IMG/VR virus record: IMGVR_UViG_3300042397_003672
Span: 1-28,889 of that record
From: a virus
DNA: 28,889 bases
Strand: one strand, 5' to 3'
Made by a program: the position numbers and the translations under genes. This document shows positions 8,901 through 24,505 of this stretch, one piece after another. How positions within the stretch are numbered: position 1 is the stretch's first letter; each line of letters opens with the position of its first letter. The notes under the pieces were generated by a model. The model saw nothing but the letters and a program-made list of their open reading frames with translations, was not told the origin of the DNA and did not search any database.

Positions 8901-11900
8901 TTGGTGTAGAGGGAAGTGGGGTATAGTCGACTGCAGGCCTTGGCTCATTAAGTACTAAACCACCATCTGCATATTTTCCAGCATTCAGTGCATCAAATGT
9001 TTGAGTTCCATATTTCGCAACGGAAGCTGCTTTTATTACATATTCTCCATTTGAAAGCATTGCTGGAATAGAATCAGATGTTCCAGTTCCTGGACCAGAT
9101 ACAACTCCTCCAGGGGATCCCTCACTATAAGTCTTAACTCTGCCATTACCATTTGGCAAGAAATGCCACCATCGGCCTACAATAGCTTTGTCTTTGTATA
9201 CCAGACCATTTGATAAGTATCTATATCCATCAACACTCTTGTACTCTGCTTTATTATTATTTAAATCAGCAAATTCTTTCTGTACAGCAGACATGCTTCC
9301 AAAAGCTTTGCTCTTTAGCCCATCTATAGGTACTGAAAAATTAGTTCCGCCGCCAGGGGAAGAAGATGGCATACTTTCATATTTTTCTTTTGTTATTGGA
9401 TTTCCAGCAGAGTCATAATACTTTGTAGGTGTGCCTCCCTTACCAGGTACAACCTTGCCTCCAATTGTTGTTGGGTCAGCTGTTGCTGAACTGCTTTTTC
9501 CTAGAGCTTTTAGCAAATCTAGTCTGAGTTGATTTAAAGTAGTTCCTCCAGTTATATCTAGTGCAAGGGAGGTTACTGCCTTCATATCTTTAGCAAATTG
9601 CTCTGTTAGACCTGAGTTTATTGTAGTGGTAGTTGGAATGATTGGTTTGCCGTTTGCATCAACTCCTGTTGGCATTCCGCCTGTAGGTTTTGTTGTAGTT
9701 ACTGGAATTGCTTTTCCATCTTTGTCAAATAGCCCTAGCTTAAAGAATGCGTTACGTATTTCTTTTGAAAGAGCAGAGCTTCCAGTTCCAGCAGTTTGAA
9801 CTTCTTTTGCAAATGCGAGTAGAGATTCTCTAACTGCTTTTTCTTCTTTCTTTCTTTCTGCGTCTGGAAGAAGTTGAGCCTGAATTCCTCTTTCAACTAT
9901 TTCGTTATATCTTTCCTGGAACTCCGTAAGCTTTGCAGCTATTTCTGATGCGGAAGCAGCTTTGTCTTGATTTGTTGCAATAGTATTAGATCGTTTATCT
10001 GAGGCATCTTGTATGTCAGTTGCCTTCTTTTCTAATGGTGCTTTAGCTTTTGCTGCAGCATCTTCAATTGCCTTAATAGCAAGATCCATCTGCCTATTCA
10101 TTGTAAGCTGATCTATTTCTAGCTGAGCACGATTTGCTGTAGCCATGTCTCCACGAGATACTGCATCAGCATATTCTATCTGTAGCTTTTGCAACTGTAG
10201 TGCATAGTTAGATGCTTCTTGTGTTGCTCTTAGCGCTTCCAGCTTTTTATTTTTTTCATCATCAATAAGTTTAATCTTTTTAGCAATTAGCTTTAACTCT
10301 TCTTGTGCGCTTCTTTGTGCAGCATTAGCTGCTCTTTGAGATGCTGCAGATACAGATCCGATGGTCTTCTTTAATCTTTCTAGTGCTGATCCAACTGAAG
10401 AGAATGTAGTTGCATTATCAGCTGAATCAGTTAATTTTTGAATTCCTGTTCCAATTGCTTGGGAAAATCCAGCTAACTTAATTGCTAAGGTTGAATCAAT
10501 CCTGCTTAAGTCTATATTAACTCCAGATGTAAACAACTTCCACTTTGCTAATATGCCCTTAATGCTATCTGATTTATTTGCAATTAGCTCTAGCAGTGGC
10601 TGTGAGTCAATTAAATTTGAATAAACACTTTGTCCTATCGCATCATTAATCTTTGGGTTATTACTTTCTGCATCTCCCATAACCATTTGCCAGGCTTGAT
10701 ATTCATCGATTACATTACCTAGCGCATCTTTAGTTCCAATTAAAGAATTTGTAGCTGAGCTAAATACATTTATTAATCCTTCAAATCCTACGCCAACTTC
10801 TTTGCCCCAGTCAGCGGTTCCGTCGCCACTATTCAATGTATTGATTAAGCTCTTAACAGAATATTCTGCTGCTGAAGCCTTATCAGTAATTGATCCAAAT
10901 GCACTGTTGCCTATAATATTAAATACTTGACCTGATTTTTCACTGTTAAGCATCGCTCCGTATATTTTTCTATTTGCGTCCGCTATGCTCATTCCACCTG
11001 CAATATATTGTGCTTTTTGATTTGCTACGAGTCTCTTAGTTTCAGCAGCACTTGTAGACCTATTAATAGATTCAATTAAATCTGTTAGACCCTTACCCTC
11101 TTCTTTTGCCTTCTTCATGTCTTCTATAGACTGTGGGAGTCCAGGCATTCCTATTGAATTATACTGTGAAGCCTTGCCTGCAATTGCTACAGCCTTTTGC
11201 TTATCAAGGTAGCCTTGCATTGTTTCTTGAAGGTTAAAGTATTTAACTCCAGCCTGCTCTGCCGCCTTTTCGGTCATAGAGAGACCCATTCTGGCATCTT
11301 GCCATGCGTCGTTATTGGCTTTAAAGATTGAGAACGCGGCTGTAGCTGCTGTTATAATTAATCCGATTGGACCAAAGGCTTTGGCAAAGTGTAGCAATTT
11401 TGGAAGTATTTTTATAAAGAATGTTCCAGCTTTAGCTGCCGCTGCCATTCCTTTTGCAAGACCTACTGATGCAGTTCCTGCGCTCTTAAGTCCAGCACCC
11501 ATTTTTGCATATGGCAGGAATGGAAGTATGCTGCTTGCAGCCATAACACCCATTCCTGCTGATGCTCCAGACATTTCATAACCAAGTACGTTAACCTTTT
11601 CTTTCTGCATCAAGGCCATACCGCCCATTGATCCAGCCATTCCGATTCCCATTTGGCTGCCCATGCCCATACCTCTTGGAGGCAAAGCAACTCCTGCTGC
11701 CTTTGCTTGAGCCTTAGTCATATGCTGACCATCAATCATATACTCTGTTTTTCTAAATCCGAGGCTTCCTACTTTTCTTTTCTGTATTCCATCTTGACCA
11801 GTGCTTCTCCAGTCTCCGACCATTCCAGGCCCGAAGTATGATCTTTGATAAGGATCGAATCCTCCATTAGGATAATGTCTTGCTGTAACTAAAGCCTGCT

Positions 11901-14900
11901 CTCTTAATATTTCAGCCTGTCTTCTTTGTATAAAGCCTTTAGCCATATCAGCTGACGATGTTGCAAAATTTCTAGCTGTTGCTACAGCAGTTTTTGAAGT
12001 ATTAATAATTGACATTGTAGACTGCTTGTAGGCTTGGCTAATGCGTGTTCCAGACGTCTGGAGTCCCGCTCTTAGTCTTTCTGAACCAATTTGAATTGAT
12101 TTTGTTAATGAGTCAAGTGCGCTATTTATTGGTAATGGTATAAGATTTCCGACTCTTAAAGCATTAATAGTTGCAGATGCATTTGGGGTAAAAGATCCAG
12201 TGTATGCATTTCCACGGACTCCAGTTCCTCCAACATAAGGGACACGTACAACTTGTGCTTGTGGATTACCAGTCGCTGTGTATGAGGATGTTCTGCTTGG
12301 AGTATAAGATGCTGCTCTTTCTGCTCTTAATCTTTCTTGCTCAGCTCTTTTTGCTGGATTTCCTGATCTTCTTGATCCATCTTTTTTAGCACCGTAGGCA
12401 TATCTACCTCTTCTAATTAAGCCTCCGCCGATTGGACCTCCAGCATTAAGATATGTTGGATTAGCATGCAAAGAATGGTATTTACTCCAATCAACTTCGA
12501 TTCCATCATCCAACCTTTTAAGCATTGCAATATAAGGGCCACGAATTTCTTTAGGCAATCCGTTTATAATCTTTACTAATTCTGGACGAGCTTGCACTAA
12601 TGCATCCTTCATTAGTCGACCATATCTTCTTGGGCTCATCTTAGCAACTATTGGAGCCGTATCACGTGCAAAGTCTTTTCTTGCTCCACCTCTAACAGCA
12701 AGCAAGTTAATCATTGCTTGTTTTTCCATCGAGTTCATTTCTTCAGCTTTTGCGACTGCTGTATTTCCAGATGCTCTAGTAAATACTCCAGATTGTCCAA
12801 CATCTGGATTAAAGTTACCAAATACATTTGACCTAGACAAATCTTTATTATTCATAAGAAGAGAAGCGGCAAGCTGTCTAATTACTGTACCTTCATCCCA
12901 TGGCACATTAGTTTTTACAAAGCGTGGGTCGTAGTCTGATTCTAGAGCAAGAAGTTTACTATTTTTTGTTGGGTCTAAAGGATTAGATACTGTTCTAGCT
13001 CCCATTACTGGGGTATTTATCTTAAACCCATTTCTAACAATTTCCGCCCCTATTGGCTCATGAATTGCAACTGCTTCATGTGAGACGCCTTTAACAAAAA
13101 CTAGTTTGCCTTTAGCGTCTCTGTATACACCAGATACACCAGGTATCGGGTAGCTCATGCCAGAGCTGCCAGCAATTCTATGTCCGTATTGAGTTATTGG
13201 CGTATCAGCAAATGATCCTAACGCTTCTCTTGAGCTTAATTGCTTTGCTGTTGTTAAAATCTTAAGCATCTTCTCTGGTGCCAACAAAGGAATAGGGTTT
13301 CCGTAAGAACTTCTACTCCTAGATATACTTCCGCCTGGAATCATTCCACCCTTATTAAGCAAAACTGGAATAGGTGGTCTGCCTCTAAAGACCCACTTCT
13401 TTCTAGAGGCTGCTGCTTCTAGTAGCATGCTTAAAGAACTTCTCTGTTTTTTGTTTGCCTTTACTACATTTCCAGAAGCATATTGCTCCTTAGTTTTAAA
13501 CAGTCCGTCATCCTGTAGTGCTGTAAATATATCATCTGGGCTAGCAATTTTTGATAGACCAACATTTCTTAATGCTATTTCAAGGTTTTTTCTTGCATCT
13601 GCTCCAGTTAAGCTTAAAATGTCGGGGGATATACCTATTTTTTGAAGTGTTGCCATTACGCTATTTATTGAATGAGGAAGAACAGCTGCAACTCCCATAT
13701 GTCCTCTTGTAGCATATCCTATCTGACCATGTCTTAATAAATGACCTCTTACATTTTGATCTAGTAAAGGTACTGCTTTTGGATCAATATTTTTTACTGT
13801 TGGTGTTACACGCTCAATTAGATCAAAAACATTTTTAAACTCTGACATACCAAGCATGGATTTTCTAACCAAATTTAAATGTTTATTTAATGCTTGGCTG
13901 GATGGATTTCTTGTTGCTGACGAATCTGGATGTTTTAATAATGGGAACTTTTTTTCAAGTCCCTTTACCTGCTTAATTCTTTGCTCAATAAATTTTTCTA
14001 GGGATCCTCCAGAAGCTGATTTAGCTAGATCAAAATTGCTTCTTGCAATACGAATAGCTTTTTCAGGAGACATCTTGGCATACTCTACTAATTCAGATGC
14101 ATCAAGCATTATCATTCTTAATCTTACATCATCTTCGTATCTTGGATTATTAATAAATCTTAGATACTCTTTCATCTGCTTTTTAAATCCAGCCTTATCT
14201 ATTCCCTTTGGAGTGTTTGCTGTTTCTCTTCCGTACCCAGTGACACTACTTATTATTTGCCCGCCAAAATTATAACCATTGTTTGCTGCATCTACTGCTG
14301 CATATAACTCAGGCATTCTTTGAATTTGAGGTCCAAAGACCACTTCCCGTGGAGTAAGCGCTGCAGTAATGTTTCCACCGTTATTTAAATAAGTGCTTGG
14401 TGCCATTGCTACTAATGCAGCATTAGCTGGATCCATTGCGGCTTGCTGATTTAATACATATCCACCAACTGGAACGCTACCTAATCTATCATCATAATTA
14501 ATTGAAGATGGTCCAGACACAATGGTTTTACCTGGGCCAAATGACTCGATGCCTCCACCATCATTAAATCTAGGCATTCTAGTAGTTTGAATACTATAAG
14601 GAGCTCCAAATGTTCTTATGCCTCGAAGTCTTCCAAACTCTTCCATTACAGAAGCATTTGCTTTTTTCTTATATAAATCTCTTAGCGTAAACTGCCCATT
14701 TGCATCAACGACTGGCTGGTCCATCATTGGAGCTCTTGTTAAATCAATTGTTCTTCCTCGTGATGCAGCGTAGGCAGTTACTGCAGCACCCATGTCTGCT
14801 TCTATTTGTGCGTTTAGTGCAAGTATTCTTGCCTTTGCTTGCTCAACTGTTATTTCTGAATTTCTTAATTGTTGAACTATTGCTGCTGCTTGTGTTGCTG

Positions 14901-17262
14901 CGCTGTCGGCAAATCTTTGAGTTATTGGAAGAATATCATCGAATGTATCCAGAAGCTCTCTGCTTACTGTTCCACCCATAGCAATTGTTTTCTTTAATGA
15001 TGCTACTTCTTGCTCTGTCTGCATTCCAAGTGTTGCCATTAATGCATGGAATTTTGCTGCCTCTCCTGGAACAATTCCAGTTGATATTCCCTTAACACTT
15101 GTTAGACCCTCAACGTTTGGAAGTCTATCATGCATGTACATTTGAGGAGTTCTTGCTATTCCTCTGTTTACTGGAACTGCTCCTGGGACCCCTCCAAATA
15201 TTGTTGCAGGATTATTTGGGTCTCTAGGATTAATGTGTGACATTGCCCTTGTATTAGGATCTCCCACATAAGGATCAGAAGCATCTACAATTCTTCTTCC
15301 AGCAGTAACTATTGTGGATCCGCCAACTGTGCTTACTCCTGGATTTACTGGAACTGCACCCTTCATTGATGCAGCTTGAAGGTTTTGATAATCTAAAACA
15401 AGTTTTTGTAATGCATTGTGAAGAACCTGAGCCGCAGCTGCATCTGAATAAAATGCATTCTCGACCATCTCTGCTGCTTTTTGTGCGGCAATAATTTCTG
15501 GAGTAAGCATTTTCCATCCGCTTGCTTTCATGAAAAATGCTCTAAGCTGTACAATTCCTTTTGTTATATACCCAAAGAAGTTAGCAAGCACACCCGTTAA
15601 CATAATAAGTGGTCCAACTAATGCAGTAAATCCTGCCATAAATGTTACTGCTTTTTTAATTGGTGCTGGTAAATTACTAAAGAAGTCTAGTATCTTTGAT
15701 GCGGCATTTATAAGCTTTGTTGCAACTGGAAGAAAGTCTTCTCCAATATCTGCAAGAGATGCTTTTAGCGATTCCATTGCTCTTCTGTATTTTCCAGAAG
15801 CTGACTCAGTTATCATTCCTAATTCTCGCTCAGCAATTCCTGCTAAATCTGAAGTACTTGCTTTCATTAATTCCATAACCTGTAAAGTCTGGCTTCCCTC
15901 TTTACCTAGGTTATTTAAAAGTGCGCTCATTCTTGCAAACTGGAACTTTCCAAACATCTGCTCCATTGCTCTAGCCTTACTTAAAGGATCCAGTTTATCT
16001 AGAGCAAATTGCAAATCCATTAATAACCCAGTTGTGTCTCCAGTATTTTTTGCAACCATTCCCATTACATCTATACCAAAATCTGACATCATTCCGATTG
16101 TTTGTTTTGTTGGATTAATTAAAGAAGCTAAACCTGACTTTAATGCGTTTGCGCCTTCTGAAGCATTAATTCCACCCTCTCTCATTGCAGTCATATAAAG
16201 GGCTAAGTCTTCAATGCTGCCGCCAAGCTGCTGTACAACTGGACCAGCTTTTGGAATTGCTTCTACTAAATCATTAAGTGTTGTAGATGTTTGGTTTTCA
16301 ACTGCGTTAAGAAAGTTAATTGATGCCGTAAGCTCTTCTGTATTTTGCTTAAATGCTGTTTGAATTGAAAGAGTTGCTTTCATAGCATCTTGTCTATCTA
16401 CTTCACCAAGTATTGCTAGTCTTGTTGTTTCTTCTATAGAACCTAAAAGATCGTTACCCATTTTTCCAGTTGCAGCAATATCAGCACCTAAAGCAATTGT
16501 GTCTTTAAAAGAAGCTCCCATAGTTTGAGATAAAGACTTTGCTGTCTGAACAACTTCTTCTCTAATTGCTTTTAAATCTGCTGCTGAAGTTGAAGCCAAT
16601 CCACCATAAACCTTTGTTAGTCTTACAAGCTCTTGATCTGCTTCTCTAAAAGCTTTTCCTGCTGCAGCACCGAACATTGTAAGAGGGACAGTTAATCCTA
16701 CTGTAAGCTGTCTACCAGCCCACTGAGTATTTTTACCCCAGTTAATTAAAGATCCAGCTCCTTCTGACAATGCACGATTCATAATCTGCATTTCCATTCT
16801 AGCTAGCTGTGCACTATTCTTTACAGCATCAAGACCTCTTGGAATCATTACGTTATACTGCATTAGCCCCTGGGCATTTCTTCCCAACGGCTGTAGTACT
16901 GAATTTTGAAGCATTACTTGCTCTTTAGCAAGTTCCCTAATCATACCCTTTTGGGTAGTGGCATGTTCTCTAAATGTTGAGAAGTAGTTCTTAAGCTTTA
17001 ATCTTCCAGCATCTAAGTTTTTACCAAACTTGTCTACATCTGAATTAAGGTTTACAAAGTGACTAGAGAACTGCCCGCTACCTGTTAATGTATCTCTAAA
17101 TAAGTTGTTTGCTAACTTTGTTGAAGAAGCTATTGCTCTGTTTGAAGAAAGAAGCTCTCTTTGTAATTGTTGGAGACTGGAACTAGCCCTGTGTACTTCA
17201 GACACAAGGCTAGACAAGTCGGCTTTGGCGACTATACTCGTTACAATTTGTTCGTCAGCCAC
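5956..17262 (-). CDS. Giant multidomain tail tape measure protein
   Basis: At 3768 residues this is far longer than most tape measures. It starts at GTG 17262, sharing the G of the upstream TAG stop, with AGGAG 6 nt before. The N-terminus (1-160) is helical. Residues about 200-470 match the phage tape-measure core domain (for example AFREADQELVRLTKVYGG and LVEAIPKAGPVVQQLGGSIE). Hydrophobic stretches lie at about 536-575 and 1894-1983, and a long coiled coil at about 2304-2490. The classic GPGTGTSDSIPAMLSNGEYV motif is at 2723. Embedded modules: an unknown one (about 960-1303), kinase-like (1304-1608), zincin 1 (2767-3106, H2937EFAH), GNAT-like (3284-3377) and zincin 2 (about 3400-3676, H3493EITH). 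The C-terminus has a typical VPADMLAMIHKNEAVIPANM stretch. It sets tail length; at roughly 0.15 nm per residue the tail would approach 560 nm if all of it were extended. Effector roles are inferred. Confidence 0.93.
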   Translation of the reverse strand: MADEQIVTSIVAKADLSSLVSEVHRASSSLQQLQRELLSSNRAIASSTKLANNLFRDTLTGSGQFSSHFVNLNSDVDKFGKNLDAGRLKLKNYFSTFREHATTQKGMIRELAKEQVMLQNSVLQPLGRNAQGLMQYNVMIPRGLDAVKNSAQLARMEMQIMNRALSEGAGSLINWGKNTQWAGRQLTVGLTVPLTMFGAAAGKAFREADQELVRLTKVYGGLASTSAADLKAIREEVVQTAKSLSQTMGASFKDTIALGADIAATGKMGNDLLGSIEETTRLAILGEVDRQDAMKATLSIQTAFKQNTEELTASINFLNAVENQTSTTLNDLVEAIPKAGPVVQQLGGSIEDLALYMTAMREGGINASEGANALKSGLASLINPTKQTIGMMSDFGIDVMGMVAKNTGDTTGLLMDLQFALDKLDPLSKARAMEQMFGKFQFARMSALLNNLGKEGSQTLQVMELMKASTSDLAGIAERELGMITESASGKYRRAMESLKASLADIGEDFLPVATKLINAASKILDFFSNLPAPIKKAVTFMAGFTALVGPLIMLTGVLANFFGYITKGIVQLRAFFMKASGWKMLTPEIIAAQKAAEMVENAFYSDAAAAQVLHNALQKLVLDYQNLQAASMKGAVPVNPGVSTVGGSTIVTAGRRIVDASDPYVGDPNTRAMSHINPRDPNNPATIFGGVPGAVPVNRGIARTPQMYMHDRLPNVEGLTSVKGISTGIVPGEAAKFHALMATLGMQTEQEVASLKKTIAMGGTVSRELLDTFDDILPITQRFADSAATQAAAIVQQLRNSEITVEQAKARILALNAQIEADMGAAVTAYAASRGRTIDLTRAPMMDQPVVDANGQFTLRDLYKKKANASVMEEFGRLRGIRTFGAPYSIQTTRMPRFNDGGGIESFGPGKTIVSGPSSINYDDRLGSVPVGGYVLNQQAAMDPANAALVAMAPSTYLNNGGNITAALTPREVVFGPQIQRMPELYAAVDAANNGYNFGGQIISSVTGYGRETANTPKGIDKAGFKKQMKEYLRFINNPRYEDDVRLRMIMLDASELVEYAKMSPEKAIRIARSNFDLAKSASGGSLEKFIEQRIKQVKGLEKKFPLLKHPDSSATRNPSSQALNKHLNLVRKSMLGMSEFKNVFDLIERVTPTVKNIDPKAVPLLDQNVRGHLLRHGQIGYATRGHMGVAAVLPHSINSVMATLQKIGISPDILSLTGADARKNLEIALRNVGLSKIASPDDIFTALQDDGLFKTKEQYASGNVVKANKKQRSSLSMLLEAAASRKKWVFRGRPPIPVLLNKGGMIPGGSISRSRSSYGNPIPLLAPEKMLKILTTAKQLSSREALGSFADTPITQYGHRIAGSSGMSYPIPGVSGVYRDAKGKLVFVKGVSHEAVAIHEPIGAEIVRNGFKINTPVMGARTVSNPLDPTKNSKLLALESDYDPRFVKTNVPWDEGTVIRQLAASLLMNNKDLSRSNVFGNFNPDVGQSGVFTRASGNTAVAKAEEMNSMEKQAMINLLAVRGGARKDFARDTAPIVAKMSPRRYGRLMKDALVQARPELVKIINGLPKEIRGPYIAMLKRLDDGIEVDWSKYHSLHANPTYLNAGGPIGGGLIRRGRYAYGAKKDGSRRSGNPAKRAEQERLRAERAASYTPSRTSSYTATGNPQAQVVRVPYVGGTGVRGNAYTGSFTPNASATINALRVGNLIPLPINSALDSLTKSIQIGSERLRAGLQTSGTRISQAYKQSTMSIINTSKTAVATARNFATSSADMAKGFIQRRQAEILREQALVTARHYPNGGFDPYQRSYFGPGMVGDWRSTGQDGIQKRKVGSLGFRKTEYMIDGQHMTKAQAKAAGVALPPRGMGMGSQMGIGMAGSMGGMALMQKEKVNVLGYEMSGASAGMGVMAASSILPFLPYAKMGAGLKSAGTASVGLAKGMAAAAKAGTFFIKILPKLLHFAKAFGPIGLIITAATAAFSIFKANNDAWQDARMGLSMTEKAAEQAGVKYFNLQETMQGYLDKQKAVAIAGKASQYNSIGMPGLPQSIEDMKKAKEEGKGLTDLIESINRSTSAAETKRLVANQKAQYIAGGMSIADANRKIYGAMLNSEKSGQVFNIIGNSAFGSITDKASAAEYSVKSLINTLNSGDGTADWGKEVGVGFEGLINVFSSATNSLIGTKDALGNVIDEYQAWQMVMGDAESNNPKINDAIGQSVYSNLIDSQPLLELIANKSDSIKGILAKWKLFTSGVNIDLSRIDSTLAIKLAGFSQAIGTGIQKLTDSADNATTFSSVGSALERLKKTIGSVSAASQRAANAAQRSAQEELKLIAKKIKLIDDEKNKKLEALRATQEASNYALQLQKLQIEYADAVSRGDMATANRAQLEIDQLTMNRQMDLAIKAIEDAAAKAKAPLEKKATDIQDASDKRSNTIATNQDKAASASEIAAKLTEFQERYNEIVERGIQAQLLPDAERKKEEKAVRESLLAFAKEVQTAGTGSSALSKEIRNAFFKLGLFDKDGKAIPVTTTKPTGGMPTGVDANGKPIIPTTTTINSGLTEQFAKDMKAVTSLALDITGGTTLNQLRLDLLKALGKSSSATADPTTIGGKVVPGKGGTPTKYYDSAGNPITKEKYESMPSSSPGGGTNFSVPIDGLKSKAFGSMSAVQKEFADLNNNKAEYKSVDGYRYLSNGLVYKDKAIVGRWWHFLPNGNGRVKTYSEGSPGGVVSGPGTGTSDSIPAMLSNGEYVIKAASVAKYGTQTFDALNAGKYADGGLVLNEPRPAVDYTPLPSTPISKLGKTTQAQIKYLRDWTNLLNTYYAAKYKDIFSFKPGEKIVTSLDTMPVVKGTKVVKDPDKALLDTQQYGGQYRHYDSSITMGLGLAGKPMFIPNPINEPSTMKNLNLISSFPFLAKGMSPVDYIESISKDAQKNPYGRMEILTTLFHEFAHALQFRINGYIKNSQKSRGLTDVGDPNKPTPGFLNIESGADVMAGGIFKEMYSNGYIPQIKKSVIDTLLKSQTLTASYGDVPAFDKRDPSSENFTWHPYNNNFRFKSVMTGFGMGDSASFDDTLTLRKQYLTENGGVPITFAEIGDSAAAIAAITPNMIPKGFHKGGPVGHRHGRNAPSTSGNTASSQGSWWDKLGLKMSYKPDGMMNPVGMTGFGILDAIKSLGAVAIGSVVPSLPARERDIASAAETTLVGPASRLFGSERFPSPWGESGLGMSSGWSKGMDVASILAAVVPFGMVARTSQQTAVNAAAFPAARAAASVGLAKPKPTLPSLMPDVLKPKKVMPSEYSLAYDASGSMHRIEVKLGDEVAGYLTWDKETGVVENLQVYPKHQGKNVATAMYNKAQTIAPITHSSYRTPAGDIFAHSIGDPVVPLNDSWLPGDWTQAQLDAAKLRNKNHVVTQLPKVKDPDLDGFSGPDIVGGQRVVGTENWGSLITENSDIMKILTELSAFYKVDVRPSVIRQKMTAGTAGYHRSDTQSVYFPDKTRGSVVAHEITHAADFQGAYWSFEDMLRYLLKTDRKAAEIVFNESMMNSYGVAKSGGNRPAWLYDSVASNLETYAPQHLPYWRGLLEKNANSQIPNIKPAGLDLGNPYADIYGFKLASMLKSSMREGYTHYRSPKFWEALIADENIPSHLAKKGEGYIAALKRYHVDETTPNDSFQLKKLLEYAIATKMAKGGLVGIPKFEAGINVVPADMLAMIHKNEAVIPANMNPFNPNATSSAVASGSVYNINVELNGTTVTAKDVAMEIHREMRIKEMAAGVNRTVGK
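6235..7065 (-). other. Zinc metallopeptidase-like module 2 in the tape measure (residues ~3400-3676)
   Basis: The segment contains GSVVAHEITHAADFQGAYW with the motif H3493-E-I-T-H3497. A candidate third ligand, E3557 in NLETYAPQ, lies 60 residues downstream. The module ends at AKGGLVG (3675). It is not a close copy of module 1: the sequences around the two HExxH motifs differ, so these are two distinct zincin-like domains. Confidence 0.6.
7132..7413 (-). other. GNAT acetyltransferase-like domain in the tape measure (residues ~3284-3377)
   Basis: The pattern is GDEVAGYLTWDKETGVVENL, then QVYPKHQGKNVATAMYNKA. The second part is a good match to GNAT motif A (V-x-P-x-x-(R/Q)-G-x-x-(I/V)-A-x-x-(L/M)), which binds the pyrophosphate of acetyl-CoA. 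The first basic residue of the R/Q-x-x-G-x-G/A signature is His/Gln (H3331-Q3332-G3333). The domain is short and sits between the two zincin modules. Confidence 0.5.
7945..8964 (-). other. Zinc metallopeptidase-like module 1 in the tape measure (residues ~2767-3106)
   Basis: This 340-residue segment is bounded by ADGGLV (2765) and KGGPVG (3105). It contains LTTLFHEFAHALQFRINGY with the zinc motif H2937-E-F-A-H2941. About 36 residues later, IESGADVMAG supplies E2977 in an ExxAD context, as in gluzincin-type metallopeptidases where that Glu is the third zinc ligand. All three ligands and the catalytic Glu are present, so the site looks intact. Confidence 0.65.
12439..13353 (-). other. Kinase-like module embedded in the tape measure (residues ~1304-1608)
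   Basis: The module is bounded by NKGGMIPGG (from K1304) and NAGGPIGGG (from A1607). Inside it, GVYRDAKGKLVFVKG resembles a glycine loop followed by a beta-3 lysine (K1391). A helix HEPIGAEIVRN follows, with E1402 or E1407. Then comes NKDLSRSNVFGN, with D1474 and N1479, like a kinase catalytic loop (D-x-x-x-x-N). The order Lys, Glu, Asp, Asn fits HipA or PI-kinase-type folds, though the Lys-to-Asp spacing (83 residues) is short. No clear DFG is seen; D1487 is a candidate. The assignment is from motif order only. Confidence 0.4.
15853..16665 (-). other. Tape-measure core domain (residues ~200-470)
   Basis: The conserved N-terminal region of TP901/PhageMin-type tape measures. Landmarks are FREADQELVRLTKVYGG, GSIEETTRLAILGEV, LVEAIPKAGPVVQQLGG, ALYMTAMREGGI and KARAMEQMFGKFQFARM. 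It is followed by a hydrophobic stretch at 536-575 (15538-15657) that could insert into the host membrane during DNA delivery. Confidence 0.8.
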
Positions 17263-17929
17263 TAATCACTCCTAGAGTATCCTAACCCTGCTCCGATTCC
17301 AAATCCCGCTTGTGCTGCAAAGGGTCCTTGTAAACTAACAACATCATCTGCTGATGTATGTATTCCAAGGGCTCTTCTTTGGATGTCTTCAAAGGTAGAA
17401 CCTTTTTCTTTTTCTTCTACAGCATCATCTAATTGTATTCCTTTTAGTGATGCTGCAAATCTTCTCTGGTTATGCTCTTTTTCATTTATCGCTGTTATTG
17501 TTTGAACTAACTCTGGCATCGATAAATTTTCTTCTAGTTCTTCGTAATTCTTCCAGTGTCCTAGAAGAAAAACTTGACCCTCTAAAGCGGCTAAATCTAG
17601 TTCTGACCAGCCAGTACCGCTGCCGCTATTAGGTTTGGGTCGTCCATCTTAATTCCTCCGCAAACTTCAAGAATGCGATTGATTGTTGGAACGTCTAATG
17701 CTTCTTCAAGCTTGTCTATATCCTTAACAAGATCTGGTAGTTGAACTTCTAATGCTACTCCGCATGCTTCAACTAAAATTCCAAGTGTTGCAGTCTCGTC
17801 TTCTGCATCTTGCACTTTCTTAATTACTTCCATAAACTTGCGTAGTTGCTTGATTGATAATGGCTTGAGCTTTACTTTAGCCCCGCTTTGTAGTTCAATC
17901 TCTTCTACGTCATATACTGTTGTTGCCAT
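17262..17929 (-). CDS. Frameshifted long tail assembly chaperone (gpG-T-like), 222 aa
   Basis: A -1 shift at CCCAAAC (17633-17639) after codon 99 of the short chaperone joins it to the downstream frame. I translated the junction: after the slip the frame reads PNSGSGTGWSELDLAALEGQ and continues open through VFLLGHWKNYEELEENLS into the downstream frame (from MPELVQ at 17519) to TAG at 17262. The fused product is 222 residues. This is the conserved arrangement for siphovirus tail assembly chaperones, which coat the tape measure and recruit tube subunits. The stop shares its G with the tape measure GTG. The downstream frame has no Shine-Dalgarno at its first ATG (17519), which supports expression by frameshift only. 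Confidence 0.85.
17597..17929 (-). CDS. Short tail assembly chaperone (gpG-like), 110 aa
   Basis: The ATG at 17929 has AGGAGG 5 nt upstream and a strong promoter about 30 nt upstream. The protein starts MATTVYDVEEIELQSGAKVK and is mostly helical, with KPLSIKQLRKFMEVIKKV, typical of tail assembly chaperones. It lies between the tail tube gene and the tape measure, as in lambda-like viruses. The zero-frame product ends at TAG 17597-17599, just after the slippery heptamer. It would be made in excess over the frameshifted form. Confidence 0.85.
   Translation of the reverse strand: MATTVYDVEEIELQSGAKVKLKPLSIKQLRKFMEVIKKVQDAEDETATLGILVEACGVALEVQLPDLVKDIDKLEEALDVPTINRILEVCGGIKMDDPNLIAAAVLAGQN
17633..17639 (-). 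promoter_or_regulatory. -1 ribosomal frameshift slippery heptamer CCCAAAC
   Basis: On the minus strand the heptamer C-CCA-AAC is in the zero frame of the chaperone gene (codons 98-99). This is the canonical X-XXY-YYZ form. The downstream frame is exactly -1 (offset 2 mod 3) and open. A possible stimulator, AGCGGC (17622-17627) pairing with GCCGCT (17586-17591), begins 5 nt after the heptamer; its 30-nt loop contains the zero-frame stop. Confidence 0.85.
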
Positions 17930-17957: not shown

Positions 17958-17986
17958 ATTATAGCATAACCATTATACGGATACAA
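17958..17986 (-). promoter_or_regulatory. Sigma70-type promoter for the chaperone-tape measure block
   Basis: On the minus strand TTGTAT, a 17-nt spacer, then TATAAT preceded by TGC (extended -10). The start point would be near 17951, giving a leader of about 22 nt with AGGAGG before ATG 17929. It lies immediately downstream of the terminator at 17990-18017. Confidence 0.7.
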
Positions 17987-17989
17987 CAC

Positions 17990-18017
17990 CAAAGCCCCCA
18001 ATTTCTTGGGGGCTTTG
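17990..18017 (-). terminator. Intrinsic terminator after the major tail protein gene
   Basis: A perfect 12-bp stem with a GAAA tetraloop on the coding strand and a run of G/C in the middle (AGCCCCCAA / TTGGGGGCT). It follows the tail protein stop by 19 nt. The end of the stem is AT-rich, but only a short T-run (TTT, inside the stem) follows the GC core. It shares its core stem with the terminator after the capsid gene. Confidence 0.75.
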
Positions 18018-18036
18018 ATATTAATTATATTAATAA

Positions 18037-18780
18037 TTAAAGTGTTATAACACGGTCAATAATCTTACCGTATTCTGAACCAACAGCATTTACGTCTGGT
18101 AGCAGACGGAATGTTACTGGGAATGTTGTTGCTGCTGTACGAGCCAAAGAGAACTGTGACTGCTCAACAGAAAGAACACGACGTGCATAATATACACGCT
18201 CAGTTTCTGATGCCTCTGAAGTTGGAGCCTGTCCAACTGCAATTAGCTGACGCTCTGTTGGAGCTGCACCAAGTGCACCTGCTTCCAAACCTAGTGTGTC
18301 AACTGCTGTTGCACCTGTTCCTGCTGATGTAAGTGTTGATGACTTCTGTCCGAATACTGCAAGAATGTTCTCTAGAGTACCTTCTGACATTTCTGTTGAA
18401 ATTTGAACCTGCATTGCAGACTTAAACAACTTAGCTGTATCTAGCAACTGGTCAACAGTTACTGAGTCAAATGTTGGCTGGTAGCTGATCTGAAGACCGT
18501 TATTTGTAAATCCTACGTTTCTGTAAGCTCCACCCTTTGCTTCTGCTGGTGCTGTTGTTTGTGTTGCTGCTTTTTCAGTCAAAACACTGTTTAGTGTTGT
18601 TGTGTAAGACTTTCCTGATTCAAAAGCTGGTACATACTGATTCTTGTTTGCAACAAATGCGTTTAGTACGCCTGCTTCCATGCTTGAATCATAACCAGCT
18701 GATGTTGAATCTTCTACTGATAAAAATAGCGGTGATGCGCCTACGAGAATATTGCGGGCGTCTCCTTGTGATTGTGCCAT
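18037..18780 (-). CDS. Major tail tube protein, 247 aa
   Basis: I place the start at ATG 18780 (MAQSQGDARN), not at an upstream in-frame ATG at 18801, because AGGAGG lies 7 nt before 18780. The protein is Ala/Thr/Ser-rich with alternating beta strands, for example GLQISYQPTFDSVTVDQLLD and RVLSVEQSQFSLARTAATTF, and ends FRLLPDVNAVGSEYGKIIDR-VITL. This fits tail tube proteins of long-tailed phages. It lies between the tail terminator and chaperone genes, flanked by its own likely promoter and a strong terminator, as expected for a very abundant subunit. Codon use appears more GC-rich than in most neighbours. Confidence 0.8.
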   Translation of the reverse strand: MAQSQGDARNILVGASPLFLSVEDSTSAGYDSSMEAGVLNAFVANKNQYVPAFESGKSYTTTLNSVLTEKAATQTTAPAEAKGGAYRNVGFTNNGLQISYQPTFDSVTVDQLLDTAKLFKSAMQVQISTEMSEGTLENILAVFGQKSSTLTSAGTGATAVDTLGLEAGALGAAPTERQLIAVGQAPTSEASETERVYYARRVLSVEQSQFSLARTAATTFPVTFRLLPDVNAVGSEYGKIIDRVITL

Positions 18781-18787
18781 TGTATTT

Positions 18788-18793
18788 CCTCCT
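18788..18793 (-). promoter_or_regulatory. Ribosome binding site AGGAGG deciding the tail tube start
   Basis: A perfect Shine-Dalgarno 7 nt before ATG 18780. It lies inside the extra N-terminal codons of the longer reading frame, so the longer version is unlikely. Confidence 0.8.
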
Positions 18794-18794
18794 G

Positions 18795-18823
18795 ATTTCA
18801 TATGAAATTAATATATATATATT
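18795..18823 (-). repeat. Two adjacent AT-rich palindromes in the tail tube leader
   Basis: ATTTCATATGAAAT (18795-18808) and AATATATATATATT (18810-18823) are perfect 14-nt palindromes just upstream of the Shine-Dalgarno. In RNA the first could form a small 5-bp hairpin. They may stabilise the leader or bind a regulator; neither is shown. Confidence 0.4.
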
Positions 18824-18851
18824 GGCTGGCTAGGCCCTTTCCTCTGTTCTA

Positions 18852-18880
18852 ATTTTACTCTACTATTTTATAAAAGGCAA
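18852..18880 (-). promoter_or_regulatory. Likely promoter of the major tail tube gene
   Basis: On the minus strand TTGCCT, 17-nt spacer, TAAAAT, starting 2 nt after the upstream stop. The leader would be about 65 nt. The same -35 (TTGCCT, 17-nt spacing) occurs before the protease gene. Confidence 0.5.
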
Positions 18881-18881
18881 G

Positions 18882-19391
18882 TTAGGCAAATCTGCCTTGG
18901 CCATTGGTTATTCTGGAGTATTTTGCTTCCAATATTACATCTGCTGCAAAGAATCCCTGTATTTCTTCTGATGGAGCTGTAGAAGATATATCGGCTATAT
19001 GAATACTATGGAACTTAAATTTATCTGATAGGCCAGCCCACCTGTTCATATCTCTAGCCGATTCGTCCATTCTTCTAAACTCGTCAGTTAGGAAGTTTCT
19101 TATCTCGACAATATCTAAAAGGTCTGGTGAATATATAGTTAACAATATCTGCTCGCAACAGATCATCCAGTTATTCTCGTATGACATCCCGACCTTGTCA
19201 TAAACTATATGTTTTTTCCCACTTAAAAATTGATTCATTTCTGGCTGCTGTTGAACTGGAACTATTGGGATAAGAGACTCTCTAAGATTATCCGAATAGT
19301 AATCTTCTTGATCAAATATATTAAGAGCAGTTAGCCTACCCCACAAAAACTTTCTTATTTCAAACATTGCATCTAGTTTATAATTAGCCAT
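18882..19391 (-). CDS. Tail terminator / tail completion protein, 169 aa
   Basis: I choose ATG 19391 (MANYKLDAMFEIRKFLWGRL) over the upstream ATG at 19427. It has GAGG 7 nt upstream, and the longer version would overlap the previous gene by 44 nt. The overlap from 19391 is 8 nt. The N-terminal helix is followed by mixed beta strands (MICCEQILLTIYSPD, then helix EIRNFLTDEFRRMDE, then FHSIHIADISST). This is similar in size and layout to siphovirus tail terminator proteins that cap the tube and join it to the head. Placement just before the tail tube gene supports this. Confidence 0.6.
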   Translation of the reverse strand: MANYKLDAMFEIRKFLWGRLTALNIFDQEDYYSDNLRESLIPIVPVQQQPEMNQFLSGKKHIVYDKVGMSYENNWMICCEQILLTIYSPDLLDIVEIRNFLTDEFRRMDESARDMNRWAGLSDKFKFHSIHIADISSTAPSEEIQGFFAADVILEAKYSRITNGQGRFA

Positions 19392-20175
19392 TTGCCAACC
19401 TCGCAAAAGATGATGATATTGCAACATCTGCCTCGTTTGCTAGCTGGTTGGCAGAAAAACTATATTTAACTGTTTTAATTTGAACTGGCACTCCAAGTGC
19501 TCTGGATAAAGATGAATTAAAAAGTCTTTGGAATCCAGATTTTTTAATAGACATACTGACAAGTTGACCAGTAAAAAAATACTTATATGCAGAAAAGAAA
19601 GAGTTTTTAGTTCCAGCCCCGCCTGGCTTTCTTACAGTAACAGGTTGCCCCTTTGGCATGAATACAGTATATCCACTTACATCAAATACTAGTCTTTCAG
19701 AAAATCGTGGCGCAATGACTACAGGCTTTCCCTCTTCCATAACTTCTGCTTTTTTAATAAATACATGTTTATTATTAGAATTCTCAGATGGAACAAACGA
19801 CTGAGAGTCTATTAATTCATAATTAACTTTTAAAGATAGTCCATCTGCTGGCAACTTATTTAATTTAAATAATCGAGCTTCGTCATCTCCAATCCTTCCC
19901 CATTCATATACATGGTGAAAAGATTTGGGGCCCGATCTGGCTTTTGCATCAATGTAATCTCCAAAATCAACCTGAAGCTGATCAAATATAATATTCCTAA
20001 ATGCTGATTGAAACTGCGGGTTTGACGCAAGCTTTGCCATTACATTTGTTTTATAAAAAAGAGCTGCAGATATTTGTGCGACTGTACTGTCTTTTATTGC
20101 ACCACTTACTGGCTTCTTAGACATTAAATTAACTAAGCCGCTTGCTGCTCTAATTGCTAAAATTTCAGATGCCAA
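19384..20175 (-). CDS. Putative neck / head-tail joining protein
   Basis: This 263-residue protein appears to start at TTG 20175 (codons TTG-GCA-TCT), overlapping the previous gene by 11 nt, with a GGAG about 10 nt upstream. An ATG at 20124 (MSKKPVSG) is an alternative without a Shine-Dalgarno. Its N-terminus is helical. The centre has FHHVYEWGRIGDDEARLF and GKPVVIAPRFSERLVFDV, and the C-terminus has KKSGFQRLFNSSLSRAL. The HVYEWG element is reminiscent of HK97 gp10-like neck proteins, but the protein is about twice their usual size. Gene order (closure protein, this, tail terminator) also suggests the neck. Confidence 0.5.
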   Translation of the reverse strand: MASEILAIRAASGLVNLMSKKPVSGAIKDSTVAQISAALFYKTNVMAKLASNPQFQSAFRNIIFDQLQVDFGDYIDAKARSGPKSFHHVYEWGRIGDDEARLFKLNKLPADGLSLKVNYELIDSQSFVPSENSNNKHVFIKKAEVMEEGKPVVIAPRFSERLVFDVSGYTVFMPKGQPVTVRKPGGAGTKNSFFSAYKYFFTGQLVSMSIKKSGFQRLFNSSLSRALGVPVQIKTVKYSFSANQLANEADVAISSSFARLANG

Positions 20176-20590
20176 TTTGCTGGTTCTCCGCTCTTTGTAA
20201 TGATGAGTTGTACCCTAGTACATTTCCAAAAGGATCTGATATGGGTGTTGTTCCTACAACGTCAAACACTGTTGGGGTGTCACTTGGATAGTTAAGCTCA
20301 TACCATATTGGTTTACCACTGGCGTCCCTAATGTTTTTTATCTTATCTCTTGGCGTTAGCCTTTCTGATGTTCTAGCTTCTATGTATTGGTTATTAGAAT
20401 ACTTATTTGAAAAGCTTTGATTGTCATTACTTCTATTTCGGCTTTCTGTAATTATTCCTCTGGCATAGCAGTCTATTGTTTTTATGTAAGAAAACTCTCT
20501 TACGATTGCACCAGTGTCTGGATCCTGTTGTTCACTTTGAGCATATATGTCCATCTTCATAGACATCAATCCATCAACTACGTCTAGCAT
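20165..20590 (-). CDS. Head closure (stopper-like) protein, 141 aa
   Basis: The ATG at 20590 shares one base with the upstream TAA (TAATG). The protein is small and beta-rich: MKMDIYAQSEQQDPDTGAIV near the N-terminus, then ERLTPRDKIKNIRD and PTVFDVVGTTPISDPFGNVL. A strand-loop-strand pattern with DPDTGAI near the N-terminus is typical of head closure proteins (SPP1 gp16 type), which seal the connector after packaging. An internal ATG at residue 9 is a possible alternative start. The role rests on size and position. Confidence 0.6.
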   Translation of the reverse strand: MLDVVDGLMSMKMDIYAQSEQQDPDTGAIVREFSYIKTIDCYARGIITESRNRSNDNQSFSNKYSNNQYIEARTSERLTPRDKIKNIRDASGKPIWYELNYPSDTPTVFDVVGTTPISDPFGNVLGYNSSLQRAENQQIGI

Positions 20591-21573
20591 TACACCACTA
20601 CCATTTGTGTGACCACATAGTCTAGAAGAAGCTTATCTGCGTATGCAGATCCTGTTCCAGTAAATGCGTCTGAACCGTATTGGAAATTCCAGTCTGTTGT
20701 AGAAATTTTATTTATATATCTATCTTTCCATGCCCTATCTTTAGCAAAATAGGTACGCATTATTTCAATGGTTGCCTGCTCTACTTCATCTGGAACATAT
20801 TCCCATCCAAATCTTGCATAGATATCATAATGCTTATTCCTTCTAAAAATATTTGGGCTTGAGTCATGTATAGACGGAGGAACCATTCCATTTGCAATAT
20901 AAACATCGTTATCTACAAAATTAACCACATTTACTCTAATTCCAAAACCACTTGTAGTAGGCTCAATATCGTATCCAACATAAGATACGTCGTTTAACTT
21001 ATCTACTAGCATCTGGTCATTTTGCTCTAAAGTAAAAAGTGTATGAATTTTCCTAGGCAATGGCAGCGTGTCTGAATCATTTCCCATTACTGTAAATGTA
21101 TCGTCAAACAAAAAGAACTTTTGCCCAGTGTAAAACTCTACCATTTTTCTGGCATATTTTTCTGCCATCCTTACTTCATGATATGTTTTATAATTTGGAT
21201 CATTTGCATCAGAACCAAATCCTAAATCTTCTATTGCTTCTTGTATAGAAACGTATGGTGTAACTACATCTAGGTAAGTTACGTGCTGATGCATGACTGA
21301 TTTATAAGCATAGTTCCATACTAAACGGAATTTTCTATCTCTTGATGTATAACCCAATGGCAAATAAAAACTGTAAACCCCAGTATCTACCTCGGAAGGT
21401 AGAGCAGTTTGCAATGTTAAAGATTGTGTTGGATCAATTCGTGGAGACACAAGAGGATCTTTAGTTATATCAAATACGTTTACCGTGACTGCGCCGTCTG
21501 GCTCAATTGCTTCTCCATTTACATATAACTTATTTGATACTGCTGTATTACTATACTTATATATCTCTGCCAT
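20590..21573 (-). CDS. Head-tail connector (adaptor) protein with N-terminal beta domain
   Basis: This 327-residue protein has two parts. Residues 1-105 are beta-rich and Ig-like, ending YLDVVTPYVSIQEAIEDLGF. Residues 110-327 hold a helical adaptor domain: VRMAEKYARKMVEFYTGQKF, LPLPRKIHTLFTLEQ, and EVEQATIEIMRTYFAKDRAW. The AEKYAR-x-x-(V/I)-E-x-YTGQ-x-F pattern and the later PRKI are characteristic of connector proteins that bind under the portal. A fused N-terminal beta domain is common in actinobacteriophage adaptors. The ATG at 21573 has no close Shine-Dalgarno (CAGGAG lies about 19 nt upstream) and is 9 nt after the previous stop, so translation may be coupled. Confidence 0.7.
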   Translation of the reverse strand: MAEIYKYSNTAVSNKLYVNGEAIEPDGAVTVNVFDITKDPLVSPRIDPTQSLTLQTALPSEVDTGVYSFYLPLGYTSRDRKFRLVWNYAYKSVMHQHVTYLDVVTPYVSIQEAIEDLGFGSDANDPNYKTYHEVRMAEKYARKMVEFYTGQKFFLFDDTFTVMGNDSDTLPLPRKIHTLFTLEQNDQMLVDKLNDVSYVGYDIEPTTSGFGIRVNVVNFVDNDVYIANGMVPPSIHDSSPNIFRRNKHYDIYARFGWEYVPDEVEQATIEIMRTYFAKDRAWKDRYINKISTTDWNFQYGSDAFTGTGSAYADKLLLDYVVTQMVVV

Positions 21574-21582
21574 TTGTTAGGC

Positions 21583-21981
21583 TTAGTTATAGTACTCCTG
21601 TACTTCTCTAGGCGTAGCTAATCTAAACCCTTCCTCCTTATCAAAAATTTCTTGAGCCACATCTGGTTTCATTGCTACAAAAGGATGATCTCTTGTAAAT
21701 GTAAATCCTAGGGCATCATATCTAGCATTTGGTCGATCCATCTTTACTAGAATCATATCTTCATCAAGCTTCTGATTTGGATCTAGTCTAGGAAGAATTT
21801 CATCTGCGTCTTCTTTTGAATTCTCTATGTTTTTTAGTGTTCCTTGGTAGACTGCCCAGGTAACCCCTTCTTCTGTTAGAGCTGCAATTACATCAGCTTT
21901 ATTTTTTAGTCCATCGACGTCAACTGCAAAGTTTGCTGCTAGCGTCTTTAGATCTTTGACCTTAAGTGTGTCAAATGACAT
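21583..21981 (-). CDS. Small structural protein with Rho_N/HeH-like N-terminus
   Basis: This 132-residue protein starts at ATG 21981 with AAGGAG 5 nt upstream. Residues 1-45 (LKVKDLKTLAANFAVDVDGL and KNKADVIAALTEEGV) match the helix-turn pattern of Rho N-terminal, SAP or HeH motifs, often found in short phage proteins next to the capsid gene. The C-terminal half (ILVKMDRPNARYDALGFTFT, then VAMKPDVAQEIFDKEEGFR) is a compact mixed domain. It is the first gene after the capsid terminator and has its own promoter. A capsid-associated or connector role is inferred from position only. Confidence 0.6.
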   Translation of the reverse strand: MSFDTLKVKDLKTLAANFAVDVDGLKNKADVIAALTEEGVTWAVYQGTLKNIENSKEDADEILPRLDPNQKLDEDMILVKMDRPNARYDALGFTFTRDHPFVAMKPDVAQEIFDKEEGFRLATPREVQEYYN

Positions 21982-22006
21982 ATTTACTCCTTTGGTAAGT
22001 ATATAA

Positions 22007-22035
22007 ATTATAGCACTATAAAATTAAAATGAAAA
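22007..22035 (-). promoter_or_regulatory. Extended -10 promoter for the connector block
   Basis: On the minus strand TTTTCA, 17-nt spacer, TGC-TATAAT. The -35 overlaps the T-run of the capsid terminator, so terminator and promoter are fused. The leader is about 20 nt, with AAGGAG before ATG 21981. Confidence 0.6.
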
Positions 22036-22057
22036 GCCCCCAAAATTAATTGGGGGC
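22036..22057 (-). terminator. Intrinsic terminator after the major capsid gene
   Basis: Stem GCCCCCAA / TTGGGGGC with a 6-nt loop, followed on the coding strand by TTTTC then further T-rich sequence. It lies about 25 nt after the capsid stop. The core stem equals that of the terminator at 17990-18017. Confidence 0.8.
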
Positions 22058-22082
22058 CTTTCGGTAGTTAATTCTTATTTAA

Positions 22083-23132
22083 TTAAGAAGCAACCTTAAC
22101 GTCTTTAACTACAACCCATGCATCTGCCTGCTCAATTTGGGTTCCAACGCGAGTATACATTGTATATTCGATTGAGTCCTTCTTTGGCCAGAAGAAGCGG
22201 TAAACAGTTACATCGCGCTTGATACCAATAACAACGTTATTTGGGAATGTCAAGTGGACGTCTCCGTGCTCTCCTGTTGGTGTTGCATATGAGCCAGTCT
22301 GAGTTTCTTTAAGTAGCGGAACTTCAACAATTGGAATACCAAATGCGAATGGTGCTACGAAACCTGCTGGACCACCTAGACCACCCTGGTCACCACGGAT
22401 AATGCTTGAAGCAATATCTTGTGGGTTAACATTCTGGATGTTCTGTGATGTTGAGTATAAGTAGTCTTGAATTAAGTTTGAGCCAGCAAGGAAGCGTAGG
22501 TCTGGACGACGCTGCTTGTACTTACGTGGCATTGCCTTAAGTGCCTTGTTGAAGATATCACGGGAAATTGCTGCGCCCGCTCCTGCTACTACATGGCCAT
22601 TTGCCTTTGCAATCTTAACAACACCGTCGAATGACTTATAAAGTGCATCTCCAGTTAGAGCTGTGTTACCGTTAAGGACTACGTCCTCAAGGTCGTTACC
22701 AGCCTGTGTTGCCATAAGTCTTGCAATGTGATCTTCGAGATCAGCACCTTCAATATTGTCTTCTAGAGACTCAGTTGAAAGCTCCCAATCTAGGCGAAGC
22801 TTCTTTGTTGTGAGAGAAATCTTTGAGAACTGTACGGCAGCATTTGTGCCTGTGTTCTCTGCTTCAGCTGCAAGCTTCATAAGCTTCTCACCGACGCCGA
22901 TACGATCAATCTCTGTAGTGTCAGCTCTCATTCGAACTGTACGTGCTACTTTACCGATTACTGTTGCATCGAACATGTAATCAAGGAATCTTGCGGATTG
23001 CTCAGGATTGAGCAAGCCTCCCTTACCCTCGGAACCTACGTGAATTCCGTCGGTAGGGTTTGCAGAACCTGTCATGCTACCTGTTAAAGTAGAATTTGCT
23101 TCTGCTGCTTTAGCTAATAGTTCATTACTCAT
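22083..23132 (-). CDS. Major capsid protein, HK97 fold, 349 aa
   Basis: The ATG at 23132 has GGTGA 7 nt upstream. A flexible N-terminal arm (1-45) is followed by LLNPEQSARFLDYMFDATVI and ISLTTKKLRLDWELSTESLE. Next come a helical LEDHIARLMATQAGNDLEDV and a long RKYKQRRPDLRFLAGSNLIQ segment. The C-terminal part has GFVAPFAFGIPIVEVPLLKE and VVIGIKRDVTVYRFFWPKKD. These are standard features of HK97-fold capsid proteins (spine helix, P domain, A domain with a PI-x-EVP strand). The gene uses many CGC/CGT arginine codons and looks GC-richer than its neighbours, consistent with very high expression. It is followed by a strong terminator. Confidence 0.88.
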   Translation of the reverse strand: MSNELLAKAAEANSTLTGSMTGSANPTDGIHVGSEGKGGLLNPEQSARFLDYMFDATVIGKVARTVRMRADTTEIDRIGVGEKLMKLAAEAENTGTNAAVQFSKISLTTKKLRLDWELSTESLEDNIEGADLEDHIARLMATQAGNDLEDVVLNGNTALTGDALYKSFDGVVKIAKANGHVVAGAGAAISRDIFNKALKAMPRKYKQRRPDLRFLAGSNLIQDYLYSTSQNIQNVNPQDIASSIIRGDQGGLGGPAGFVAPFAFGIPIVEVPLLKETQTGSYATPTGEHGDVHLTFPNNVVIGIKRDVTVYRFFWPKKDSIEYTMYTRVGTQIEQADAWVVVKDVKVAS

Positions 23133-24476: not shown

Positions 24477-24505
24477 ATTATAGAGATTGTTCTATAAAAA
24501 GGCAA
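24477..24505 (-). promoter_or_regulatory. Promoter for a (near-)leaderless protease-scaffold mRNA
   Basis: On the minus strand TTGCCT, 17-nt spacer, TATAAT. The -10 ends 9 nt before ATG 24467, so the leader would be 0-3 nt. No Shine-Dalgarno is present. It lies in the short gap after the portal gene. Confidence 0.6.

Follow-up and report, generated by a model that had tools for sequence, protein, structure and literature searches.

Putative terminator-promoter junctions behind the major capsid and tail-tube genes of a phage group

Layout of the capsid and tail-tube junctions

The IMG/VR virus record IMGVR_UViG_3300042397_003672, whose whole stretch of 28,889 bases is referred to here as the window, carries its identified virion genes on the minus strand in the order portal, protease, capsid, connectors, tail tube, chaperone position, and tape measure, with the chaperone and tape measure assigned by synteny. 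Behind both the major capsid gene and the tail-tube gene lies a cassette in which a terminator-like hairpin is followed by an extended −10 promoter sequence and then by a gene start, as an initial annotation of this DNA had described. Coordinates are those of the window, and loop, spacer, and gap lengths are in nucleotides (nt).

22083..23132, minus strand: major capsid protein gene (phrog_1623, 1.3e-88; Pfam Phage_capsid)
22031..22062, minus strand: terminator-like hairpin after the capsid gene, 13 pairs, 6-nt loop
22007..22035, minus strand: capsid-site extended −10 promoter (TGC TATAAT, −10 TATAAT at 22012-22007), which would restart transcription
21583..21981, minus strand: first gene of the restarted unit after the capsid gene, 132 amino acids (phrog_9487, function unknown)
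18037..18783, minus strand: major tail (tail-tube) protein gene (phrog_2175, matched on the longer open reading frame 18037-18801)
17990..18017, minus strand: terminator-like hairpin after the tail-tube gene, 12 pairs, 4-nt loop
17958..17986, minus strand: tail-tube-site promoter (TTGTAT, 17 nt, TGC-TATAAT), which would restart transcription
17597..17929, minus strand: first gene of the restarted unit after the tail-tube gene, in the tail assembly chaperone position (syntenic to gene 34 of Circinus and gene 55 of Anedea)

At the capsid site, a −35-like hexamer, TTTTCA (22035-22030), lies 17 nt from the −10 box and overlaps the stem by 5 nt, so that hairpin and promoter are fused signals; the start codon of the next gene is at 21981 on the minus strand. 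At the tail-tube site, 3 nt separate the stem from the −35 TTGTAT (17986-17981), which is followed by the −10 box at 17963-17958 and a minus-strand start codon at 17929. A gap of 0–4 nt between hairpin and promoter, proposed earlier for both sites, therefore fits the tail-tube site but not the overlapping elements of the capsid site.

Both hairpins share the stem core GCCCCCAA/TTGGGGGC on the minus strand, as had been claimed, and a search of the rest of the record places this core at the two cassettes only (two places in 28,889 bases; a reversed-pattern control gave none). Compared with 200 shuffles each, the capsid-site fold (−23.8 kcal/mol) has a z score of −6.0 and the tail-tube-site fold (−27.6 kcal/mol) one of −6.9, and the two are the strongest hairpins among the 18 gene junctions listed in the window. 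Between 12000 and 28889, 19 terminator-like sites were found against 10.3 (standard deviation 3.0) in shuffles. Counted by hand, the T-run of the capsid site holds 8 T in 12 bases.

A general repeat search of the window returned chance-like families only. The Rfam family Phe_leader scored 31 and 27.7 bits over the tail-tube and capsid hairpins, respectively, against a gathering score of 55, and these matches were taken as chance. An inverted repeat made of A and T only is seen at the tail-tube stop codon (~18019-18040, minus strand), just before the terminator hairpin, and is visible by eye in many relatives.

The protein assignments and gene order agree with those of annotated phages. The capsid protein is ~60% identical to annotated Streptomyces phage major capsid proteins. 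The tail-tube protein matches Pfam Phage_TTP_17 below the family cut-off, and its assignment also draws on annotated major tail proteins, to which it is homologous and with which it is syntenic. Apart from extra genes, the gene order is that of Streptomyces phages Circinus and Anedea and of Rhodococcus phages Trina and Dorin. Two further genes belong to the units that would be restarted.

20590-21573, minus strand: head-tail adaptor, next after the 132-residue gene
5956-17262, minus strand: tape measure, after the chaperone-position gene (by position and synteny)

The open reading frame in the tape-measure position encodes 3768 amino acids, exceeding the annotated tape measures of Circinus, Trina, Dorin, Wakanda, Birchlyn, and Beuffert.

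Conservation, covariation, and spread of the cassettes

The cassettes are conserved in sequence and position in near relatives, their stems covary, and they are spread over distant phages. Near relatives were drawn from IMG/VR as the best 80 capsid and best 80 tail-tube loci, each of ~600 candidates. The capsid-site hairpin with TGnTATAAT is present in 72 of the 80 loci, and the other eight end too early or, in one case (L021), fold back at the contig end. TGnTATAAT is found at 78 of the 80 tail-tube loci, with TAGTATAAT in the remaining two (L138 and L139). No fetched locus whose sequence reaches far enough is without a −10 box. The L021 contig reverses at the capsid hairpin (9048-9136) and runs back through its flank in inverted orientation; this is probably an artefact of assembly or amplification at the stem.

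Alignments of unique sequences were made for the capsid site (39 sequences from the 72 usable loci, the window standing in for L003) and the tail-tube site (30 sequences from 80 loci, the window standing in for L083). Because rows were picked by a regular expression requiring a TATAAT-like box, the invariance of the −10 box inside the alignments is partly selection. Outside that box, the TTGT of the tail-tube-site −35, at a spacing of 17 nt, is invariant in all 30 sequences. Changes on both sides of a pair occur in 4 of the 13 capsid-stem pairs and in 6 of the 12 tail-tube-stem pairs; none of 500 shuffles, which leave the relatedness among sequences in place, reaches either value, and slid controls are lower. 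The GC-rich stems are backed by compensatory change at both sites, a pattern consistent with intrinsic terminators.

Named Streptomyces and Rhodococcus phages extend this picture. Seven of them have both junctions in view and five more the tail-tube junction only; within this set BillNye nearly repeats Circinus, and Francesca nearly repeats Dorin. A hairpin followed by a −10-like box, with boxes identified by eye, is present at the capsid junction in 7/7 and at the tail-tube junction in 12/12. The cassette layout is kept and the stem letters are quite different. Most boxes, not all, carry the extended TG: CGC precedes the capsid-site TATAAT of Circinus, AGG precedes the tail-tube box of Beuffert, and the tail-tube −10 box of Circinus is ambiguous. 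When hairpins were ranked by strength among the junctions examined in each of eight genomes, the two sites held the first two ranks in six, with ranks 1 and 3 of 17 in Wakanda and 1 and 5 of 16 in Anedea. Stanwilliamsviridae and Rhodococcus phages Trina, Dorin, and Francesca share the gene order, where annotated, and the hairpin-then-promoter layout with the window, whereas their stem sequences and GC content differ. Judged from these comparisons, the cassette layout outlives its sequence.

Similar fusions are found elsewhere in these genomes. A loose stem search of ten relatives' records of 64–117 kilobases recovered both sites in nine and the capsid site only in one (G018), along with zero to two other places per record. 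The fused design also occurs with different stems. Across seven named regions and six long phage records (record G013 turned round for the count), 125 hairpins were examined. With a promoter score of at least 10.5 required, 24 of them are fused to a promoter that points the way of the structural genes, and none to one that points the opposite way. In several of these hairpins the loop contains a −35 of TTGAC or TTGTC type and the 3′ arm forms the spacer (G001 36477, G005 56400 and 88738, G014 113336, G016 47393, and the tail-tube junction of Dorin), and others place TTGCCC in the 3′ arm (G014 29499, G005 90865, and G016 49538). Position 9675 of L315 is among the fused cassettes with the loop-borne −35 (TTGAC/TTGTC) and the 3′-arm spacer.

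The near-identity of the two cassettes in the window had been attributed to either duplication or shared selection. For 63 unique cassette pairs from 130 loci, mean identity between genomes at the same site is 0.818 for the capsid cassette and 0.742 for the tail-tube cassette. Identity across sites is 0.629 within one genome (n = 63) and 0.628 between genomes (n = 3906). Since the two cassettes of one genome resemble each other no more than cassettes of different genomes do, shared selection is favored and recent duplication is not. The core GCCCCCAA occurs at the capsid site in 23 pairs, at the tail-tube site in 20, and at both in 10, against 7.3 expected. Recent copying between the two sites could be suspected from the identical 8-nt stem core and TGC-TATAAT at both window sites, but the figures just given, the different −35 layouts of the two sites, and the unrelated stems with which distant phages hold the same layout make such copying highly improbable. 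The shared stem core of the window is apparently coincidental, both hairpins being of a terminator style that is common here.

Putative promoters in front of the two units and a candidate RNA element in the tail-tube leader

Sequences upstream of the capsid and tail-tube units are also conserved.

24477..24505, minus strand: promoter of the protease-capsid unit (TTGCCT, 17 nt, TATAAT), with the start codon 9 nt past the −10 box
18852..18880, minus strand: promoter of the tail-tube gene (TTGCCT, 17 nt, TAAAAT)
18824..18844, minus strand: predicted 5′-terminal RNA element of the tail-tube mRNA (GAGGAA, then a 3-base pair GGC/GCC stem with loop CTAGCCA)

Just 9 nt separate the −10 box from the start codon of the protease gene, so the protease-capsid mRNA looks almost leaderless. 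The box TTTGC...TA(T/A)AAT...ATG is present in 53/53 relatives' loci with enough upstream sequence, with 7–9 nt from the −10 to the ATG. For the tail-tube promoter, the −35/−10 pair is recognized in 48 of 50 aligned leader members, 47 of which have a spacer of 17. A strict TTGCCT-class pattern falls exactly at the capsid-unit and tail-tube promoter places in G013, G014, and G015. In the window, and also in G005 and G016, it finds just the capsid unit; the tail-tube box of the latter two is a variant, and G016 has one additional place on the opposite strand. G001 gives no match. The sequence of that record starts within the capsid gene, and its tail-tube box, CTTGCCT, is as in the window. Taken together with the cassettes, these conserved upstream promoters suggest that both high-output units are flanked, by a promoter ahead of them and by a stop-and-restart junction after them.

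The predicted tail-tube leader was examined in 50 hand-picked rows of 95 unique sequences, a selection that left out known chance matches, near-duplicates, and all rows of L275 to L310. GAGGAA lies 7–8 nt past the −10 in 42 of the 50 members and 6–10 nt past it in the 48 with a recognized box; one member has GAGGAG instead. The loop CTAGCCA is invariant, and a tail-tube homologue follows within 900 nt downstream in every member (50/50). Pair 18-30 of the stem is AU in 23 members, GC in 16, UA in 6, and unpaired in 5, and the next two pairs outward are unpaired in 20/50 and 33/50. Over the stem, 76.8% of alignment cells pair compared with 65.2% in shuffles (0/500 as high), and 2/500 shuffles attain as many pairs changed on either side; by a weak measure that counts further pair types, 68/500 shuffles are as high. 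Folded alone, the window leader forms a stem that differs from the covarying one and does not outdo shuffles (z 0.39). What argues for the short leader stem is covariation only. A pseudoknot pairing the CTAGCCA loop with the gene start region was considered, as TGGC, the complement of GCCA, lies within 130 nt in 46/50 members. None is claimed, because TGGC belongs to the common ATGGCA start (45/50) and longer complements are rare (at most 6/50).

A DNA-pattern scan of IMG/VR found at least 119 loci; among the matches listed, 82 hold the pattern 41–81 nt before a tail-tube homologue, and these homologues range from 46 to 100% identity. Two of the other 37 represent this leader truncated by the end of a contig, and the rest look like chance. 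A covariance model matched 11 of 38 sources, once in each and always at the tail tube. The 11 are the window, five long phage records, and five named Streptomyces regions; the model itself included the window, those regions, and sequences closely related to the long records. Trina and Dorin, among those 38, gave no match. In five further named phages, the model matched BillNye, StarPlatinum, and Tomas and found no match in Mandalore (a Streptomyces phage) or Francesca. An Rfam search of the window, L193, and L194 yielded 11 matches with E values up to 5; none of them reached its gathering score or lay over the leader. At the corresponding position before the tail-tube gene, Rhodococcus phages L314, L315, and L322, which are without the CTAGCCA leader, have a different leader in common, CAGGTAGGATTTA.

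The GAGGAA-hairpin leader, placed by its distance from the −10 box at the 5′ end of the tail-tube mRNA, is a candidate new RNA element. Its role may be in mRNA stability, translation control, or an antitermination-like process. Leaders of processive antitermination of the nut/put type were considered for comparison, and membership among them is not claimed. A wider proposal seems to us evenly poised: that the capsid and tail-tube units form a modular ratio circuit, built from shared TTGCCT-type promoters and fused terminator-promoters, to which the tail-tube unit adds a structured RNA at its 5′ end that would control stability, translation, or polymerase, and that this RNA is a new one-gene family extending from AT-rich metagenomic to Streptomyces phages (~37 to 53% GC).

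Proposed function and comparison with known systems

We consider it very likely that both sites are transcription-unit boundaries, at which an intrinsic terminator ends one unit and a fused or adjoining sigma-70-like extended −10 promoter restarts a less demanded one. Capsid and tail-tube proteins are needed in many copies per virion. The initial annotation had proposed that such cassettes separate the two most-needed structural genes from their neighbors and restart transcription for less-needed products, and the comparative evidence fits this reading, as far as sequence can speak to it. Host polymerase would start at the TTGCCT-type promoters upstream of the capsid and tail-tube units, and the intrinsic terminators would end most transcripts of each, so that the capsid and tail-tube mRNAs would become short and abundant. 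Other polymerases would start at the fused promoter and proceed into the next unit, the connector genes in one case and the chaperone and tape measure in the other, whose products could be made at a lower, separately set level. That polymerase stops and starts at the junctions, how strong the signals are relative to one another, and that they serve stoichiometry are points we infer.

Several observations weigh against the boundary reading. A weaker measure of covariation, which admits further pair types, is matched by 18/500 shuffles for the capsid stem and 2/500 for the tail-tube stem, and the capsid-site promoter is without a conserved −35 in the 39 unique sequences. The opposite-direction control for fused promoters fills at laxer scores (27 versus 4 at 10, 34 versus 8 at 9, and 41 versus 17 at 8), and the 24 fused cases are not 24 independent events because homologous sites were counted repeatedly. 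The tail-tube T-run is imperfect, with 7 T in 12 bases after GGGGGC, and a simple terminator scan lists this hairpin in the antisense direction only. Consensus promoter matches are not enriched in the window, with 49 found and 49.6 expected. As that count equals the shuffled expectation, the scan was not used as promoter evidence, which rests instead on conservation in relatives because consensus matches alone prove nothing here.

This lack of enrichment is what chance hairpins beside chance promoters would predict, but the conservation, covariation, and position of the cassettes in many genomes leave chance with a next to negligible probability. The imperfect tail-tube T-run would also suit hairpins that are 3′ caps left by RNA processing, protecting the capsid and tail-tube mRNAs rather than stopping polymerase while the promoter feeds the next genes independently, and stems of 12–13 pairs would indeed slow exonucleases. 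However, three T positions beyond the stem (T40-T42 of the capsid alignment) are invariant in 39 capsid-site sequences, as in the U-tract of a terminator, although they may also serve the promoter, and a T-rich run follows the stem in several distant relatives; we regard processing caps as unlikely. A possible but doubtful alternative is that the terminator mainly shields the downstream promoter from upstream traffic rather than setting product ratios. Hairpin-promoter fusions at other junctions of these genomes speak for shielding, whereas in the genomes examined the top-ranking cases, or those close to the top, lie behind the two genes of many-copy virion proteins. Shielding and the setting of product ratios are compatible purposes.

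If the junctions are unit boundaries, a phage group well represented in metagenomes seems to use these stop-and-restart junctions to set how much of its two commonest virion proteins is made. The exact RNA ends are predicted and can be tested in cultured Streptomyces phages. Two further leads are compact parts that fuse a terminator with a promoter and a candidate new RNA element specific to the tail-tube mRNA. Judged by titles and the beginnings of abstracts, searches of the open-licence literature listed nothing on these junctions or the leader, and by title none of the open-licence papers naming Stanwilliamsviridae concerned transcription.

Gene 23 of T4-like phages is the major capsid gene. 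A terminator is predicted downstream of it in 6/6 genomes compared, at a conserved position (PMC1524935). The T7-like phage LUZ100 likewise has a terminator after its capsid gene (PMC10134795). The principle of a terminator after the capsid gene is therefore already known. The terminator predicted from sequence immediately after the major capsid gene of the window agrees with the insulated capsid cistron of both groups.

The capsid unit described here resembles that of T7-like phages (T7 and LUZ100), in which a local promoter and a strong terminator surround the major capsid gene. However, the local promoter of T7-like phages is phage-specific and late transcription in T4 relies on a phage sigma factor to recognize its promoters, whereas the boxes at our junctions look like host sigma-70-type boxes. 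The T7-like arrangement differs further from ours, where the tail-tube gene has it too and where terminator and restart promoter touch or overlap; nor do the passages on T4-like phages compared here describe a stem fused to a −35, which is a feature of the capsid site of the window. We thus say that the junctions would work like, and not that they are members of, the T7- or T4-like insulated capsid cistron, with the host-type character of the boxes judged by their look. New in comparison with these precedents are the fusion of the two signals, their presence behind the tail-tube gene as well, and how deeply their position is conserved.

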